A stretch of DNA of 32,172 nucleotides from a virus, in the IMG/VR virus record IMGVR_UViG_3300012964_000039, positions 1 through 32,172 of that record, one strand, 5' to 3'. Below are positions 697-6,541 of the stretch, one piece after another; the first letter of the stretch is position 1; each line of letters begins with the position of its first letter. Position numbers and translations under genes: made by a program. The notes below the pieces were generated by a model that made no database searches, was not told where the DNA came from, and saw nothing but the letters and a program-made list of their open reading frames with translations.

Positions 697-705
697 GAGG
701 TGCAC

Positions 706-1782
706 ATGGTAACCGCGAAGAAAGTCGTGAAGAGGCCTGCCGCCAAGGCAACGCCCAAGGCAACGCCCAAGGCAACGCCCAAGGCAACGCCCAAGGCAAC
801 GCCCAAGGCAACGCCCAAGGCAACGCCCAAGGCAACGCCCAAGGCAACGCCCAAGGCAACGCCCAAGGCAACACGCGCACCGATAACGCTTCCTGCGCCA
901 CGCAGAAAGACAAAGACGGCGGAGCCGCTGCCGCCAGTACTACAGCCTCCGACGCACGCCCCGCTCTACACGGAGTGTGAGTCAAAGAGTGCTGTAGCGC
1001 CGCAGAAGCCCGCACCCGACACGCCCGAGATTGCAGTGTTCGCAAGTGCGCATCGGGAAACCTGCATTCGCATCAGCATCGGGCGGAAGAACGTGGCATA
1101 CATACCGTTCGATGCGCACGGCCTCCACGTCAAGCGTTGCGGCATGGAGGCCTTCAATGAGGAGTGGTGCTTGGTCTTTGCAGGGTATAGCCCTGCGATG
1201 GCTGCGCAACGCTATCTCATGAGTTTCGCAGCACTGCACTACATTTCTGAAGAGGCACGCACCCACCTTGAAGAAATCTCTAAATCTGGGGCAATCAAAT
1301 CAATTACCAAGGAGAATACCATGACCACAGCATCTAAGACCACAAAGAAAGCAACCCCGCCCGCCGTGTCTGCCAAGGGCTTTGACAAGGCCAAGGCGGC
1401 GGCAGACTACAAGGCCGCAGTCGCCAAGCCCGCCGCAGCAGGCGGCAAGGCATCGGCAGCAAAGAAGCCCGCAGCCAAGCCCGCGAAACCTGCTGCTAAG
1501 AGCACTAAGACCGCAGCTAAGAAGCCTGCTGCGAAACCTGCTGCCAAGGGTGCGAAGGCCGCTAAGAAGCCCGCAGCAGTCCGCTTCGCCGGTCGCAAGA
1601 TCAAAGTTCTGAACAAGGAACACGGCGCACGGGAGGGCACCAAGCGCCAGATCGGCATGGACATCCTCATCAACAGCAAGACCACCGATGAAGCGTTCAA
1701 GAAGTTCGAAAAGTACGAAGGCATCGATGCGAGCTTCATTCGTTTCGCAGTTGACAGTGGCATCATCGCGCTGTCCGAGTAA
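706..1782 (+). CDS. KATP-repeat protein fused in frame to histone-like Lys/Ala/Pro-rich protein
   Basis: The start is ATG at 706, five bases after an AGGAGG at 695-700; a GTG at 700 inside that site is rejected. The 358-residue product has a basic N-terminus and ten perfect KATP repeats (about residues 14-53). A short domain without recognised homology follows (about residues 110-195, with CIRISIGRKNVAYIPFD). The second half is rich in Lys, Ala and Pro (KKPAAKPA-type), like bacterial histone H1-like or AlgP-type DNA-binding tails. It ends in a small globular segment (GRKIKVLNKEHGAREGTK onward). The second half has its own ribosome binding site and ATG at 1321, so this may be two genes that lost a separating stop. 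DNA compaction or nucleoid binding is inferred from composition only. Confidence 0.7.
   Translation: MVTAKKVVKRPAAKATPKATPKATPKATPKATPKATPKATPKATPKATPKATPKATRAPITLPAPRRKTKTAEPLPPVLQPPTHAPLYTECESKSAVAPQKPAPDTPEIAVFASAHRETCIRISIGRKNVAYIPFDAHGLHVKRCGMEAFNEEWCLVFAGYSPAMAAQRYLMSFAALHYISEEARTHLEEISKSGAIKSITKENTMTTASKTTKKATPPAVSAKGFDKAKAAADYKAAVAKPAAAGGKASAAKKPAAKPAKPAAKSTKTAAKKPAAKPAAKGAKAAKKPAAVRFAGRKIKVLNKEHGAREGTKRQIGMDILINSKTTDEAFKKFEKYEGIDASFIRFAVDSGIIALSE
745..876 (+). repeat. 12-bp coding tandem repeat (KATP)n
   Basis: Ten perfect copies of AAGGCAACGCCC occupy 745-864, followed by a variant copy at 865-876. The repeat encodes Lys-Ala-Thr-Pro. Identity at the DNA level points to recent expansion by slippage or recombination. 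Copy number is likely to vary between relatives, and it will be hard to resolve with short reads. Confidence 0.95.
1321..1782 (+). CDS. possible separately initiated histone-like protein (internal start)
   Basis: An AAGGAG motif at 1309-1314 followed by ATG at 1321 lies inside the longer frame starting at 706. A 153-residue product from here would begin MTTASKTTKKATPPA. It would consist of a KPAA-rich tail (about residues 30-85) and a C-terminal globular part of about 65 residues. The composition resembles H1-like DNA-binding proteins of proteobacteria. The well-formed ribosome binding site suggests this was, or still is, an independent gene. The alternative is a single fused polypeptide with a fortuitous site. 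The gene ends just before the hairpin at 1794. Confidence 0.55.
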   Translation: MTTASKTTKKATPPAVSAKGFDKAKAAADYKAAVAKPAAAGGKASAAKKPAAKPAKPAAKSTKTAAKKPAAKPAAKGAKAAKKPAAVRFAGRKIKVLNKEHGAREGTKRQIGMDILINSKTTDEAFKKFEKYEGIDASFIRFAVDSGIIALSE

Positions 1783-1839: not shown

Positions 1840-1986
1840 ATGAAGCTGTGTAGACGATGCGGGCATAGACACCCAAGCGCGTATTTCTGCGCCTTTGTAG
1901 CTGCGAATAAACGCGCAGAATTGCGCATGAAGCCATTTGACAGATTCATTCAGCAATGGCGGCGCAGTAGAGAAAGGAGTTCGTAA
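1840..1986 (+). CDS. 48-aa Cys/His micro-protein, possible zinc finger
   Basis: ATG at 1840 is preceded by TTGGAGGAG at 1827-1835, a strong ribosome binding site. The stop TAA at 1984-1986 overlaps the ATG of the next gene (TAATG), which indicates translational coupling. The product begins MKLCRRCGHRHPSAYFC. Its CxxC pair (Cys4, Cys7), His9, His11 and Cys17 could bind one zinc ion. The C-terminus is rich in Arg (WRRSRERSS). It is the first gene of the base-modification operon. The function is unknown; a small nucleic-acid or protein adaptor is possible. The main support is the strong ribosome binding site and the overlap with the next gene. Confidence 0.7.
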   Translation: MKLCRRCGHRHPSAYFCAFVAANKRAELRMKPFDRFIQQWRRSRERSS

Positions 1987-2855
1987 TGCTGAAGATATTC
2001 ATACCTAGCTGGCGACGCCCAGCTACAACCACAACGCCCGCCCTGCTCGATGCGTGCGGCATAGATTACAAATTGGTGATCCGCGAAACTGAATACGCGG
2101 AGTACCTCAAGAATTTCAACAAGAAGAAACTGTTGGTCATCGGCGCGGAAGACGGGCTCAACCTTGCGCGGGAATATACGCGCTCGCTGCTCAAGAAGAA
2201 TGAGTGGTGCCTGCACATGGACGACAACGTGCTGGGCTTTATCCAGTGCGAAAAGAAGTTCTACCACGCGCATGACGTGGTTCCGCTTGACGATGGCGAA
2301 GACATGGTGACCCGCGCCAAGTGGCAGCCCACCATGAACCACAAAGTATCGTTCAAGGAATTCTACGACCTCGTCGTATCTGACACCGTCTTCAAATGTG
2401 TGCAGCGCGGCGCGTATCTGGCCGGATTCAGCGCCCACGACAACCCAGCGTTCCGCTATCGTAAGTTCACGGATGTGGGCTACGTGTGCGGCAAGACGAT
2501 GCTGATGTGCAACCAAGGACTTCCGTGGGTACAGTCCTACGAGTCGTCAGGCGAGGACTACGCGCTCACCGCCGCGCACCTGTACGAGAACGGCAGGGTG
2601 CTCATCAACAAGTGGGGACATCCCATGCGGAAGCACTACATGGCGGGAGGGTGCGGCCCGTACGATGAACGGCTATCAGCCATGATGCGCGCACAGCAAG
2701 ACCTCTGCCTGCGCTACGGCGACCTCTTTGCAATCAAGAACGAAGGCAAGGAGGACAAGCGTCAAGGCGAGCTGCGACTGCGCTTCAACAGCTTGGAGCA
2801 GGTTGCCAAGTGGCGCGCAGACCTACCCCACGATCCGAATTGGAGGATGAAATGA
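1986..2855 (+). CDS. TAGT-like glycosyltransferase (predicted DNA-base glycosyltransferase)
   Basis: The 289-residue product begins MLKIFIPSWRRPATTTTPAL, which looks like the first strand and nucleotide-binding loop of a GT-A type glycosyltransferase. WCLHMDDN at about residues 74-81 is a DxD-like metal and sugar-nucleotide site. This pattern fits the TET/JBP-associated glycosyltransferase (TAGT) group described in phage base-modification clusters by Iyer and colleagues in 2013. The likely role is transfer of a sugar from a nucleotide sugar to a hydroxymethylated or further modified pyrimidine in phage DNA. It overlaps the micro-protein gene upstream (TAATG) and the radical SAM gene downstream (ATGA), so the genes are coupled. 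No TET/JBP oxygenase is visible, and a thymidylate-synthase homologue may supply the hydroxymethyl group instead. Assignment rests on motif recognition, not on alignment. Confidence 0.72.
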   Translation: MLKIFIPSWRRPATTTTPALLDACGIDYKLVIRETEYAEYLKNFNKKKLLVIGAEDGLNLAREYTRSLLKKNEWCLHMDDNVLGFIQCEKKFYHAHDVVPLDDGEDMVTRAKWQPTMNHKVSFKEFYDLVVSDTVFKCVQRGAYLAGFSAHDNPAFRYRKFTDVGYVCGKTMLMCNQGLPWVQSYESSGEDYALTAAHLYENGRVLINKWGHPMRKHYMAGGCGPYDERLSAMMRAQQDLCLRYGDLFAIKNEGKEDKRQGELRLRFNSLEQVAKWRADLPHDPNWRMK

Positions 2856-3676
2856 CAAGGCTGTTCAACACAATCAGCATAGAAATCGCCAGCTTGTGCA
2901 ACCGAAAGTGCGACTGGTGCCCTGTTGCGTACAACGACCGCCCTGACGAACGCATGGAGGGTGCGGTACTGGAGCGCATACTCGCGGATCTCAAGGCGCT
3001 GAACTACAACGGTCGCGTGGAGTTGTATCTGTACAATGAACCGACTCGCGAGCTGACGTACCTGATCAACGTGATCACGCGAGTTCGGTACATGCTGCCG
3101 CGCGCCTGCATCATGATTGCCACGAACGGAGACTACTTGCGCGGCGTAGGGAACATTCTTCAGCTCTATGCGGCGGGGCTTAATCAGCTACTCATCAACT
3201 GCTACACCAAGGGACTGATGGAACGGCGTAAGAAGTGGGTTGAAGGCTTACCGGACGGCATTACGCAGGACGCCGGTGTGTACGCCAATACAGGGCCGCA
3301 CAAGCGCATCGTGGATATCATGGACAAGAGCAACCCCGCCAGCTTTGGGAAGGGTGTGTTCTCACTAGTGAACCGAGCAGGTAATATCCCGAACTTCAAA
3401 CCGGCGCTGAAGAAGCCCGTAGAACGTATGTGCGTCAAGCCGTTCCGCATTCTCAACATCAACTGGCGCGGCGATGCGCTGATCTGTTGTCAGGACTATC
3501 ACGGCAAGGTGAATATCGGAAACGTATTGTCGCTCGGCGTGGAAGGTTTGTGGAACCATGCAGTATTCAAAGAGTACCGCCACAAGCTGTACGCCAAGAA
3601 TCGCAGCCTACCGCTCTGTCGCGAATGTGATTGCCATGCGGGGGCGTACCCGCACAACGTACCTGTTCCGGACTAG
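2852..3676 (+). CDS. radical SAM enzyme with C-terminal SPASM/twitch-like cysteines
   Basis: The start is ATG at 2852, overlapping the previous stop as ATGA and following GGAGGA. The 274-residue product has the canonical CxxxCxxC cluster motif at Cys16, Cys20 and Cys23 (CNRKCDWC), which binds the 4Fe-4S cluster and S-adenosylmethionine. The C-terminal part carries MCVKPFRILNINWRGDALIC, a further Cys and CRECDC, the pattern of a SPASM or twitch auxiliary cluster. Radical SAM enzymes act in some thymidine hypermodification pathways, where one rearranges an amino-acid adduct on the base. The neighbouring hypermodification gene suggests a similar job here. The substrate is unknown; peptide or sugar modification is the main alternative. 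Confidence 0.9.
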   Translation: MTRLFNTISIEIASLCNRKCDWCPVAYNDRPDERMEGAVLERILADLKALNYNGRVELYLYNEPTRELTYLINVITRVRYMLPRACIMIATNGDYLRGVGNILQLYAAGLNQLLINCYTKGLMERRKKWVEGLPDGITQDAGVYANTGPHKRIVDIMDKSNPASFGKGVFSLVNRAGNIPNFKPALKKPVERMCVKPFRILNINWRGDALICCQDYHGKVNIGNVLSLGVEGLWNHAVFKEYRHKLYAKNRSLPLCRECDCHAGAYPHNVPVPD

Positions 3677-3684
3677 GAGATACT

Positions 3685-4551
3685 ATGAACAAAGAAAACT
3701 TCAAGAAGATGCTGTACTGGATGGAAGAACGGCAGCGAATTTATCTGCGAAAAGAAGCGGGAGAACCAAAGCCATGGACAAAAGACCCCATCCTCCGCGA
3801 TAACAAGTTCTGCAATGTTTACAGGGAGCAGGACAAGACTACTGTCTGGATCAAGGAAAACTGGCGCGATCCATATGCAGATCACGAAGATCTATGGTTT
3901 GCGATGCTGGTAGCGCGGCTGATCAACAAGCCGGACTCGTTGCAAGAGCTGGGTGTGCCGCTGCCGTGGAGCGCCAAGCGGTTCACGCAGGTGATACACA
4001 AGCGCACGCAGCGCGGAGACACGGTGTTCAGCGGTGCGTACATAGTCAGCACGAACGGCATCGCAATGGATAAGGTGGACTACCTTGCGGAGCGGGTACT
4101 GACGCCTATCTGGAATGCGCGTAAGCAGGTTCGCCCAGTGGCTGTGGACACACTGGACGCCTTCCACAAGCGCCTCATTCAATTCAACGGAGTAGGGTCG
4201 TTCATCGGCGCGCAGGTCGTGGCGGATATGAAGTACACGCCGATACTGTGCAACGCCGATGACTGGTACGCATTCGCTGCCAGCGGGCCGGGAAGCCGCC
4301 GTGGACTGAATCGTGTACTGGGCAGACCGCCCGCTGCTGCGTGGTCTGAAGAGGGCTGGCGGAACGCACTGCGCGAACTGTGGGTGGCGCTCGGCGATGA
4401 CAAGCGATACGCCAAGCTGCGCGCAGAAGGTGTATTTCCGCAGCCTGTTCACTGCCAAGATCTGCAGAATGTATGTTGTGAATTCGACAAGATGATGCGG
4501 ATCAGTAACGGTGAGGGGCGTATGAAGGCAACTTACAAAGGAGGCGCGTGA
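3685..4551 (+). CDS. DNA base hypermodification protein (HMUDK-helical / aGPT-PPlase type)
   Basis: ATG at 3685 follows AGGAG. The 288-residue helical protein has WTKDPIL (31-37), KFCNVYRE (41-48), NGVGSFIGAQVVADM (168-182), SGPGSRRGLNRVLGR (200-214) and HCQDLQNVCCEFDK (256-269). I recognise this set from phage proteins annotated as base-hypermodification factors. These are related to the helical domain of 5-hydroxymethyl-dU DNA kinases and to alpha-glutamyl/putrescinyl-thymine pyrophosphorylases. The NGVGSFIG segment looks like a helix-hairpin-helix of the DNA glycosylase type. There is no P-loop, so it is not itself the kinase. Its likely role is to attach or exchange a group on a phosphorylated hydroxymethyl-pyrimidine in DNA. 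Which clade it belongs to cannot be settled by eye. It is coupled to the next gene by TGATG. Confidence 0.78.
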   Translation: MNKENFKKMLYWMEERQRIYLRKEAGEPKPWTKDPILRDNKFCNVYREQDKTTVWIKENWRDPYADHEDLWFAMLVARLINKPDSLQELGVPLPWSAKRFTQVIHKRTQRGDTVFSGAYIVSTNGIAMDKVDYLAERVLTPIWNARKQVRPVAVDTLDAFHKRLIQFNGVGSFIGAQVVADMKYTPILCNADDWYAFAASGPGSRRGLNRVLGRPPAAAWSEEGWRNALRELWVALGDDKRYAKLRAEGVFPQPVHCQDLQNVCCEFDKMMRISNGEGRMKATYKGGA

Positions 4552-5570
4552 TGGTACGAACAATCACAGTAAACAATGTCAATGAGGCGTTGAGCGAGGC
4601 GCTCTGGCACCTCAAGACGGAGGGCGTGGTCACGGACTCACGGAACGGCGCGGTACTGGCTGCGCCGGACCCCGTGATCACAACGTACACGCAGCCCACG
4701 CAGCGAGTGATGCTGTCTGCGCTGCGCGATGCAAACCCGTTCTTCCACCACATGGAGGCGATATGGATGCTGGCCGGTGCGAACGACGTGGCATTCCCCA
4801 GCACGTACGCCAAGCAGATCGCGGCATATAGCGACGATGGCGAAACGCTGAATGGCGCGTATGGTCATCGCTGGCGGACGCATTTCGGCGGTGATCAACT
4901 GGTGTGGCTGATCAACCTGCTACGTAGTGATCCACACACGCGGCGCGCAGTGCTTGGCATGTGGGACGCCAGCAGCGACCTCGCCAAGACACAAAGTAGC
5001 AAGGATGTTCCCTGCAATACGCACGCCTACTTCAGCACGACGCGCGGAGCACTTGATATGACGGTGTGCTGTCGCAGTAACGACGCCGTCTGGGGCGCGT
5101 ATGGCGCGAACGCGGTTCACTTTTCTATGCTATTGCAGTTCATCGCGGAGGCCGCTGGGCTGCCTGTGGGTCACTATCATCAACTGAGCAATAATCTGCA
5201 CATCTACCTTGACCGACCAGACGTTGACCGGTTGATCTTCCGCAGCACCGACAGGATTGATGTGAAGTACCAGCCAGACACGCGATATCAATACTGGTAC
5301 ATGCAGGCCATCAAGCCGCTGATACTTCCCGCTGAACACTATACGGAATTCCTGCGCGATGCCGAGGAGTTCGTCAGCGACCCAACCGGCGATACGCAGT
5401 TCCGCACATGCTACTTCAACGAAGTGGTCGCTCCTATGCAGGTCGCGCACATGGCGTATCGTGAGCGTGACTTTGAAGCCGCGCTGATAGCGTGCGTAGA
5501 CATCACGGACACTCCGTGGCAGACAGCGTGCAGCGAGTGGCTGGAGCGTAGGAGGAACAATGCAAAATAA
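4551..5570 (+). CDS. thymidylate synthase family protein, predicted dUMP hydroxymethylase
   Basis: The start is ATG at 4551, overlapping the previous TGA and preceded by AAAGGAGG; a GTG three bases upstream is less likely. The 339-residue product shows thymidylate-synthase landmarks: GAYGHRWR near 103-110, RRAVLGMWD (131-139), the catalytic Cys155 in VPCNTHAYF, CRSNDAVWGAYGAN (174-187) and LSNNLHIY (212-219). The PCN context and RSND motif resemble phage pyrimidine hydroxymethylases more than cellular ThyA. Asn187 aligns best with the Asn that reads uracil in ThyA, whereas T4 dCMP hydroxymethylase has Asp, so dUMP is the favoured substrate. The product would be 5-hydroxymethyl-dUMP. An ordinary phage ThyA remains possible. 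Confidence 0.82.
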   Translation: MVRTITVNNVNEALSEALWHLKTEGVVTDSRNGAVLAAPDPVITTYTQPTQRVMLSALRDANPFFHHMEAIWMLAGANDVAFPSTYAKQIAAYSDDGETLNGAYGHRWRTHFGGDQLVWLINLLRSDPHTRRAVLGMWDASSDLAKTQSSKDVPCNTHAYFSTTRGALDMTVCCRSNDAVWGAYGANAVHFSMLLQFIAEAAGLPVGHYHQLSNNLHIYLDRPDVDRLIFRSTDRIDVKYQPDTRYQYWYMQAIKPLILPAEHYTEFLRDAEEFVSDPTGDTQFRTCYFNEVVAPMQVAHMAYRERDFEAALIACVDITDTPWQTACSEWLERRRNNAK

Positions 5571-6072
5571 ATTGAACTTGATCATGCGTGGTGGGCGCGT
5601 CAAGCGGTATCACGTGATGGACACGCTTAAACAGCAGACAGTCGCGGAGCATAGCTTCGGCGTGGCATGGCTGGTGTGGTTGTTGTGCGATGGACGGCCT
5701 AGCGTGGAGCTAGTGATGGCCGCCCTCCAGCACGACCTCGCGGAACACGTGACCGGCGACCTACCCGCACCAGCCAAGCGCAGTCTCGGCATTAGCAAGC
5801 AGTTTGAAGAATATGAATCCGCCATCATGGCCGACGCACGAATGCCGCAGGTGATGCTGACGCAGGCAGAGCGGCGCACTTTGAAGTTCGCAGATACGTG
5901 CGACCTTATGCTGTACTGTTTGCGAGAAATGGAACTGGGCAACTACGGCATCCATGAGGTCTACAAACGTGGTCGTCAGTACATCTGCGAACTCGGCGAA
6001 CGTAGCACCAAGGAGTCTGAACTTTATAACTACATTCAAGGAGTGGAACGTGAGCTCGTCAGCAAACACTAG
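5560..6072 (+). CDS. HD-domain deoxynucleotide phosphohydrolase (YfbR/DatZ-like)
   Basis: ATG at 5560 lies inside the end of the preceding gene (11-bp overlap) after TAGGAGG. The 170-residue product has the metal-binding HD pattern: His31 in AEHSFGVAWL, His58-Asp59 in LQHDLAEHVTGDLP, and Asp112 in LKFADTCDLM. Size and motifs match the YfbR 5'-nucleotidase and phage DatZ-type group of HD hydrolases, which remove phosphate groups from deoxynucleotides. In phages with modified bases such enzymes deplete the unmodified nucleotide. Here the likely target is the normal pyrimidine nucleotide that would compete with the hydroxymethylated one. Substrate specificity cannot be read from the sequence. 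Confidence 0.85.
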   Translation: MQNKLNLIMRGGRVKRYHVMDTLKQQTVAEHSFGVAWLVWLLCDGRPSVELVMAALQHDLAEHVTGDLPAPAKRSLGISKQFEEYESAIMADARMPQVMLTQAERRTLKFADTCDLMLYCLREMELGNYGIHEVYKRGRQYICELGERSTKESELYNYIQGVERELVSKH

Positions 6073-6541
6073 ACAGGTCGGCGGTAAACACTACAGCAGC
6101 CAGTATCAGCACTGGGATTTCGCGCACGATGCCTTCGGTGACGGCTACTTCCAAGGTCAGATCACCAAGTACGTGTTCCGATGGAAAAAGAAGAACGGCT
6201 TGGAGGATCTAAACAAGGCCGCGCACTTCCTGCAGAAACTCATAGAGCTGCGGGATGGGCTGGGCGTGGCGGGGCTGCTTGTGCAACTGCTTGTGCAAGC
6301 GTTCTACACATTGTCAGGGCAGCGCGCGCTGGCGCGCAAACTCGTACAGCAGTTGATCAAAGCGAACGATGTAGGCATTGCTGAGTCCCTCGTGATGCAG
6401 TACGTGGCGGACGGTCGCCGCGATTCGCTGGCGCGCGCTGCGCGAATACTGGGGCATCTTATCTACAGCCTGTCCGAGGACGCCTGCGGCGCGTGCGGCG
6501 CGTCTGCGCGGTACGTTGATCAAGATGGCGGCCCGCCATGA
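6050..6541 (+). CDS. DUF3310 domain protein
   Basis: The start is GTG at 6050, six bases after AAGGAG (6038-6043), within the end of the HD gene. The N-terminal 70 residues contain RQVGGKHYSSQYQHWDFAHD and TKYVFRWKKKNGLEDLNKAA, the signature of the DUF3310 family, widespread in phages and sometimes labelled a nucleotide kinase without proof. A C-terminal extension of roughly 90 residues, rich in Leu, Ala and Arg, is not typical of the short family members. It ends with a Cys/Gly-rich tail (CGACGAS). It overlaps the HTH gene downstream as ATGA. A role in nucleotide metabolism alongside its neighbours is plausible but unproven. Confidence 0.8.
   Translation: MSSSANTRQVGGKHYSSQYQHWDFAHDAFGDGYFQGQITKYVFRWKKKNGLEDLNKAAHFLQKLIELRDGLGVAGLLVQLLVQAFYTLSGQRALARKLVQQLIKANDVGIAESLVMQYVADGRRDSLARAARILGHLIYSLSEDACGACGASARYVDQDGGPP

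Follow-up and report, generated by a model that had tools for sequence, protein, structure and literature searches.

What does a radical S-adenosylmethionine (SAM) enzyme do in a viral operon for thymidine hypermodification? The question is raised by a stretch of 32,172 bases from a viral genome (IMG/VR record IMGVR_UViG_3300012964_000039), the whole of which is called the window here. Its minus strand carries the genes for sheath, baseplate, head-protease and major-head proteins, and an early operon occupies positions 1986-6541 of its plus strand. Thymidine hypermodification is best known for the amino-acid route, in which a kinase, an amino acid transferase and tailoring enzymes take part. 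A first-pass annotation of the window had placed at 2852-4551 a radical SAM enzyme, to be compared with those of phages M6 and ViI, and had suggested for it a reaction like the rearrangement of an N-linked amino-acid adduct to a C-linked one. The radical SAM gene is present, but the interval holds two genes, one for the radical SAM protein (2852-3676) and one for a HMUDK_hel protein (3685-4551), and a different role was indicated. We propose, with confidence that stands about midway between doubt and conviction, that the product is a BtrN-family (twitch) radical SAM alcohol dehydrogenase, which would work in the sugar branch of 5-hydroxymethyluracil (hmU) hypermodification by oxidising a base-borne sugar.

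The open reading frame at 2852-3676 of the plus strand, which is preceded by GGAGG, encodes a protein of 274 amino acids (P0001) with the arrangement C16-x3-C20-x2-C23, and the CxxxCxxC motif noted in the first-pass annotation at residues 16-23 was thereby located in a real radical SAM protein. In 82 aligned viral relatives, the residues C16, C20, C23, C194, C212, C256 and C259 were invariant together with two glycines. Because all seven cysteines are invariant, the CxxxCxxC motif, which in the radical SAM superfamily serves the SAM [4Fe-4S] cluster, is not a chance occurrence. Pfam assigned the C-terminal part to SPASM (E 1e-10) and left the Radical_SAM core below threshold (0.006), and the C-terminal cysteines had likewise been described as SPASM-like. 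The SPASM motif comprises seven cysteines (CX9-15GX4C-CX2CX5CX3C-C; PMC6231123), whereas BtrN contains a single auxiliary [4Fe-4S] cluster with four cysteine ligands (PMC9012708). The seven-cysteine motif was not found in the P0001 family, in which the C-terminal invariants were four cysteines (C-x17-C...C-x2-C, aligned with the cysteines of BtrN), plus the nearly invariant C213 beside a cluster ligand. Since the set is the BtrN-like one of four and SPASM requires seven, the SPASM label was replaced by twitch, and a single auxiliary cluster with four cysteine ligands is predicted.

A phmmer-type search of the PDB sequences with P0001 alone returned BtrN as the sole match (E 4.7e-20), in two stretches spanning most of the length. 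The profile of the 82 viral relatives matched BtrN over its full length (E 7.1e-46), and the next chains (8.9e-10) matched in the core only. The AlphaFold2 model of P0001 had a predicted local distance difference test score (pLDDT) of 92.8 and a predicted template modelling (TM) score of 0.91. With this model, BtrN was ranked first by Foldseek (E 2.5e-19, TM 0.77/0.86) and by VIA-align (Z 29.0, root-mean-square deviation 2.0, 238 residues), where the next family reached Z 16.3. By its sequence and predicted fold, P0001 is therefore assigned to the BtrN family of twitch proteins. A scan of GTDB genomes yielded a single, weak bacterial relative.

The operon in which this gene lies is made up as follows, in window coordinates.

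1986-2855, plus strand: TAGT-type (TET-associated) glycosyltransferase, 289 amino acids (PF20691, E 1.2e-6; PHROG 842)
2852-3676, plus strand: BtrN-family radical SAM enzyme with twitch domain (P0001), 274 amino acids, predicted ligands C16/C20/C23 and C194/C212/C256/C259
3685-4551, plus strand: HMUDK_hel (aGPT-Pplase1) protein (P0002), 288 amino acids (PF18723, E 7.9e-46)
4551-5570, plus strand: thymidylate-synthase homologue, predicted hydroxymethylase of deoxyuridine monophosphate (PHROG 5131, E 2e-110; PF00303)
5560-6072, plus strand: HD/YfbR-like 5'-deoxynucleotidase (PF12917, E 4e-15), in the same gene order as in M6
6059-6541, plus strand: DUF3310 protein (PF11753, E 2e-7), conserved on the 3' side of the cassette and at the same place in M6 and relatives

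The genes between 1986 and 6072 overlap or abut and are provided with Shine-Dalgarno-like sites, which argues that they form an operon; the start of the radical SAM gene and the stop of the TAGT gene share the sequence ATGA. An alternative GTG start at 4548 is possible for the thymidylate-synthase homologue, which has the signature RSNDxxWGAYGANAVH in common with its M6 counterpart. The window TAGT scored 29 bits against PF20691, marginally above the cut-off of 27.5, and matched the beta-glucosyl-HMC-alpha-glucosyltransferase family PHROG 842 (E 7e-8); a TAGT profile built without it matched residues 1-277 with an E of 1.3e-19. This protein is divergent: a six-frame PF20691 search missed it, and a viral scan that started from it with strict patterns returned no relative, but a profile search of the fetched loci did match.

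The linkage of the radical SAM gene to its neighbours was then followed in other viruses. The first search, with P0001, returned distant relatives only, several of which lay in clusters of glycosyltransferase genes that contained no hmU genes. The second search used the thymidylate-synthase homologue of the window and was thus blind to the radical SAM gene. It returned near relatives of P0001 beside HMUDK_hel and thymidylate-synthase genes, with identities of 59% (L114), 39% (L149) and 24-30% (others), and the gene order in L114 was that of the window, namely TAGT, radical SAM, HMUDK_hel and thymidylate synthase. Viral contigs were then searched by the radical SAM profile alone, which gave 11 loci of group A and 119 of group B (80 kept); the two groups were scanned apart, as the combined alignment was too diverse. 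After removal of near-copies, this context-blind IMG/VR set contained 68 distinct loci, 52 of which were flanked on each side by 4 kb or more. A HMUDK_hel gene was found in 48, a thymidylate-synthase gene in 49 and a TAGT gene in 38 of these 52 loci, and the TAGT and radical SAM genes frequently overlapped, as they do in the window. These results strongly support the coupling of the radical SAM enzyme to the 5-hydroxymethyldeoxyuridine (5-hmdU) hypermodification cassette across about 70 distinct viral loci, and in this respect the first-pass annotation was borne out. The gene does adjoin a hypermodification gene, as had been stated, but this neighbour belongs to the hmdU-kinase helical family and is not an amino acid:DNA transferase.

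The transferase position was occupied by other families in some loci, by SRSRYGGW proteins in 14 and by VQNDYT proteins in 5. Neither family gave a worthwhile PDB match, and Pfam returned nothing at E 0.01 for those members that were searched; we therefore make no claim that they are glycosyltransferases. Among three loci first scored as transferase-free, L249 has a weak TAGT match and L175 a weak GT4 match. In the tree, the window protein fell in group A with L114, L167, L168 and L175 (100/100), and groups A (9 rows) and B (59 rows) were separate and each well supported. Midpoint rooting placed BtrN and the non-cassette viral proteins on the side of group A; with its long branches, the tree did not settle between one and two cassette entries for groups A and B.

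Which branch of hypermodification the enzyme serves was examined in the sample from the thymidylate-synthase search. This sample comprised 50 distinct loci, 44 with HMUDK_hel, and the latter were divided into 19 with a kinase and 25 others. TAGT genes were present in none of the 19 kinase loci and in 14 of the 25 others (Fisher p 4.5e-5), and twitch radical SAM genes in none of the 19 and 6 of the 25 (Fisher p 0.03), both tests ignoring shared phage ancestry. Conversely, an amino acid:DNA transferase gene was found in 15 of the 19 kinase loci and in none of the 25 others. Forty-five whole records with the twitch radical SAM gene were also searched, and HMUDK_hel was detected in 41, the PF18748 kinase in one and the PF18724 amino acid:DNA transferase in one, the last two in the same record (L173). 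As a control, the PF18748 model found 16 of 19 kinase-branch records and none of 12 others including the window, while the TAGT model found 11 of 11 TAGT-branch records and none of 19 kinase-branch records. Neither PF18748 nor PF18724 was found in the 32 kb of the window, which is a genome fragment. Four radical SAM records had no HMUDK_hel, and the TAGT-radical SAM pair was kept in three of them (L169, L251 and L252), which links the enzyme more closely to the transferase than to hmU. The radical SAM cassettes are of the sugar-branch type, and hardly any contain genes of the amino-acid branch.

The HMUDK_hel protein is common to both branches. The window protein matched PF18723 with 157 bits (cut-off 25), and its model had a pLDDT of 96.9. 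VIA-align returned PaMx11 gp46 (PUGT, the glycinyltransferase of 5-phosphomethyldeoxyuridine, 5-PmdU) at Z 11.0, followed by DNA glycosylases at Z 8-10 and the queuine salvage enzyme DUF2419 at Z 9-10.6. Most of the matches listed are base-flipping DNA glycosylases, and Z values of this size are only suggestive for helical proteins. HMUDK_hel is predicted to be an hmU reader or base flipper with a DNA-glycosylase-like helical fold. This fold, together with the alternation of kinase and TAGT, suggests that it offers hmU in DNA to the modifying enzyme, of whatever kind, that the phage encodes.

The following pathway may be proposed. The thymidylate-synthase homologue, to judge from its homology, would make the monophosphate 5-hmdUMP, and hmdU would then enter the DNA. 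HMUDK_hel, judged by its fold, would recognise or flip hmU and thus serve the glycosyltransferase instead of a 5-hmdU kinase, and the TAGT, by its family, would put a sugar on the 5-hydroxymethyl oxygen. BtrN converts a ring carbinol of 2-deoxy-scyllo-inosamine to a ketone: a hydrogen is abstracted and an electron is lost, the auxiliary cluster being its probable acceptor (PMC9012708). By analogy with BtrN, the radical SAM enzyme would cleave SAM, the 5'-deoxyadenosyl radical would abstract a hydrogen from a carbinol carbon of the sugar, and the auxiliary [4Fe-4S] cluster would accept the second electron, leaving a keto-sugar on the base. It is the sugar oxidation that we infer here; a sugar substrate is favoured by the overlaps of the TAGT and radical SAM genes and by the pair kept in three of the four records without HMUDK_hel. 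DNA is weakly favoured as the site by the basic charge of the window protein (net +11) and of group A (median +10) in comparison with BtrN (+1). Tentatively, and a shade less firmly than the enzyme's role itself, we suggest that a second hmU branch is widespread in uncultivated phages, in which HMUDK_hel is paired with a glycosyltransferase instead of a kinase and a BtrN-type oxidation to a keto-sugar on DNA follows.

Other reactions were considered for the same enzyme. Within the same family and cassette, it could act before the transfer, on a nucleotide sugar or a small polyol, and so provide the glycosyltransferase with an unusual donor. We regard this as unlikely, though deserving of attention, given that the substrate of BtrN itself is a free aminocyclitol (PMC9012708), that a cytidylyltransferase/mannose-6-phosphate-isomerase-like fusion stands beside the radical SAM gene in L140 and L213, and that several distant viral relatives sit among glycosyltransferase genes with no hmU genes nearby. 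However, neither the window cassette nor most of the others had a recognisable nucleotide-sugar gene, and the charges given above fit a DNA-acting enzyme, if weakly. The attached sugar could also be the substrate of a radical epimerase or of another redox-neutral rearrangement, since the related folds include EpeE (an epimerase) and DesII, and C213 beside the cluster ligand is nearly invariant. The EpeE and DesII folds reached Z 13-14, against 29 for BtrN, and C213 was also present in 10 of 14 non-hypermodification relatives, so that it does not mark an epimerase role; we give this reaction a small chance. Oxidation of the 5-hydroxymethyl group of hmU to 5-formyluracil, the sugar being added elsewhere, would be an alcohol oxidation as in BtrN, on hmU that cassettes with HMUDK_hel and thymidylate synthase would supply. 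It appears improbable, as the kinase-branch cassettes with these two genes do not contain the enzyme (0/19), and some TAGT-radical SAM pairs come from records in which HMUDK_hel was not detected (L169, L251 and L252).

The rearrangement of an N-linked to a C-linked amino-acid adduct on thymidine, as advanced in the first-pass annotation, is suggested by the order HMUDK_hel, thymidylate synthase, HD and DUF3310, which is common with M6, whose cassette has a radical SAM gene. That gene (L008:20189-21631) encodes a protein of 480 amino acids from a different radical SAM family: it gave no phmmer match to P0001 at E 0.01, hhalign of the P0001 family with its profile yielded a probability of 1% over 41 columns, and no solved structure matched the M6 profile. 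The M6-type pyridoxal phosphate (PLP) enzyme and the M6-type radical SAM gene were absent from all 68 distinct loci (0/68 each), and the kinase and amino acid:DNA transferase were nearly so, as described above. Kinship with ViI did not hold either; an M6-type radical SAM match was found in 67 phage records (E 1e-10), none of them from Salmonella, and HMUDK_hel homologues were found in 162 Salmonella phages, so that ViI was dropped as the source of a comparable enzyme. An M6-type isomerase was rejected on the profile comparison and the missing partner genes, and we hold it to be very improbable. A maturase of ribosomally synthesised and post-translationally modified peptides, lying beside the cassette by chance, is scarcely credible: the SPASM label of Pfam denotes a domain common in peptide maturases, but the linkage to the hmU cassette is conserved in tens of phages, the protein of 274 amino acids has no N-terminal peptide-binding extension, and its fold is that of BtrN and not of ChlB, SuiB or SkfB. 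This candidate was rejected on linkage, size and fold. Because the cassette genes abut, without intergenic space in 1986-6072, no precursor gene lies between them, and among the 45 largest neighbour families listed none was precursor-like, conserved and small. The alternative named in the first-pass annotation itself, a peptide-modifying SPASM enzyme with a precursor gene nearby, thus gave way to BtrN as the nearest relative.

Several points weigh against the oxidation of a base-borne sugar. The kinase, the amino acid:DNA transferase, the TAGT and the radical SAM gene occur together in L173, and the radical SAM gene adjoins a kinase-like gene in L240 and L241; the exclusion between the kinase and sugar branches is therefore not absolute, and the Fisher tests take no account of the ancestry that the phages share. 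About a quarter of the loci are without TAGT, and the proteins in its slot are merely glycosyltransferase-like or unassigned. On the substrate side, BtrN and group A, to which the window belongs, share the motif NRxG, whereas group B mostly has NHxG, so that the two groups may differ in substrate. No aminotransferase or other ketone-using enzyme was identified in the window cassette. Finally, the reaction does not follow from family membership; for this subfamily, the difficulty of predicting function from sequence clusters has been noted (PMC6231123).

Further genes were observed around the cassettes. Upstream of that of the window (700-1782, plus strand) lies the gene for a histone H1-like protein that is rich in Lys, Ala and Pro and contains repeats, among them a tandem ATPK repeat; such a protein is also encoded upstream of the cassette in L010, L014, L015, L096 and L097, and a C-terminal segment (KIKVLNKEHGAREGT...) is conserved. 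In L015 (5965-6687, plus strand), a sulfotransferase-like protein with a P-loop recognised by eye (LVLGSGRSGT) and no PHROG match adjoins the TAGT in a HMUDK_hel-thymidylate synthase cassette, and a sulfated sugar on DNA is possible there. FkbM-type methyltransferases (PF05050) within the radical SAM-TAGT-thymidylate synthase cassettes of L149 (6486-7178) and L220 (5290-6006), both on the plus strand, suggest O-methylation as a further tailoring step. The fusion in L140 (4950-5981) and L213 (6126-6995), also on the plus strand, joins a cytidylyltransferase-like domain to a mannose-6-phosphate-isomerase-like cupin and suggests that an activated sugar or polyol is produced by some of the phages themselves. 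A second radical SAM protein, apparently with two inteins, is encoded beside the TAGT-twitch radical SAM pair of L169 (3060-6425, plus strand). The first intein seems to begin exactly at the third cysteine of CxxxCxxC (CSMRCQY/C ... VVSN/CFSHSQKD, junctions marked by slashes), and the cluster would form only after splicing. TAGT-twitch radical SAM pairs were also seen in L251, L252 and L254, loci without a clear thymidylate synthase or any HMUDK_hel match (L251 and L252 records searched whole).

Taken together, the data point to a sugar route parallel to the amino-acid route, with shared first steps and HMUDK_hel and with a radical dehydrogenase as the tailoring enzyme. If this is true, radical SAM enzymes would oxidise sugars on DNA, bases bearing oxidised sugars would be expected in many environmental phages, and HMUDK_hel proteins would have a general role as hmU-presenting modules. 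To our knowledge, no keto-sugar DNA nucleobase has been described; an earlier mention of the radical SAM linkage in the literature is possible.

Among known systems, phage M6, which follows the pathway to 5-aminoethyldeoxyuridine (5-NedU), has the HMUDK_hel, thymidylate-synthase, HD and DUF3310 genes in the order of the window and a radical SAM gene nearby. It differs in that this radical SAM protein is of another family and in that its cassette contains, by Pfam, three enzymes that were not detected in the window: an amino acid:DNA transferase (PF18724), a 5-hmdU kinase (PF18748) and a PALP-type PLP enzyme. Pelagiphage cassettes with thymidylate synthase, aG/PT-PPlase1 and a TAGT-type beta-glucosyl-HMC-alpha-glucosyltransferase represent the sugar branch without radical SAM; they were noticed earlier, in a report whose main text is silent on radical SAM genes (PMC9599517). 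The TAGT enzymes of T6-like phages, which probably add a second glucose to glucosyl-hydroxymethylcytosine in DNA (PMC13390438), are of the same family as the neighbour of P0001, but the window TAGT is part of an hmU cassette and shares an operon with a radical SAM gene. SpeY (PDB 7WZX) is likewise a twitch radical SAM dehydrogenase of related fold (Z 13.8), although far more distant than BtrN. A BtrN-like radical SAM gene, annotated 'BtrN protein' in CP20, is also known from the Campylobacter phages CP20 and CPt10, without thymidylate-synthase, HMUDK_hel or TAGT genes nearby; in CPt10 (Firehammervirus; L256:3225-8780) it is one of five radical SAM genes, which are accompanied by an amidinotransferase-like gene. 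The closest known counterpart is BtrN of butirosin biosynthesis (PDB 4M7S/4M7T), a full-length homologue with 25% identity over 238 residues and the same three plus four cluster cysteines. In contrast to BtrN, the window enzyme is phage-encoded, more basic, and located in a DNA-modification operon beside a member of a DNA-base glycosyltransferase family.

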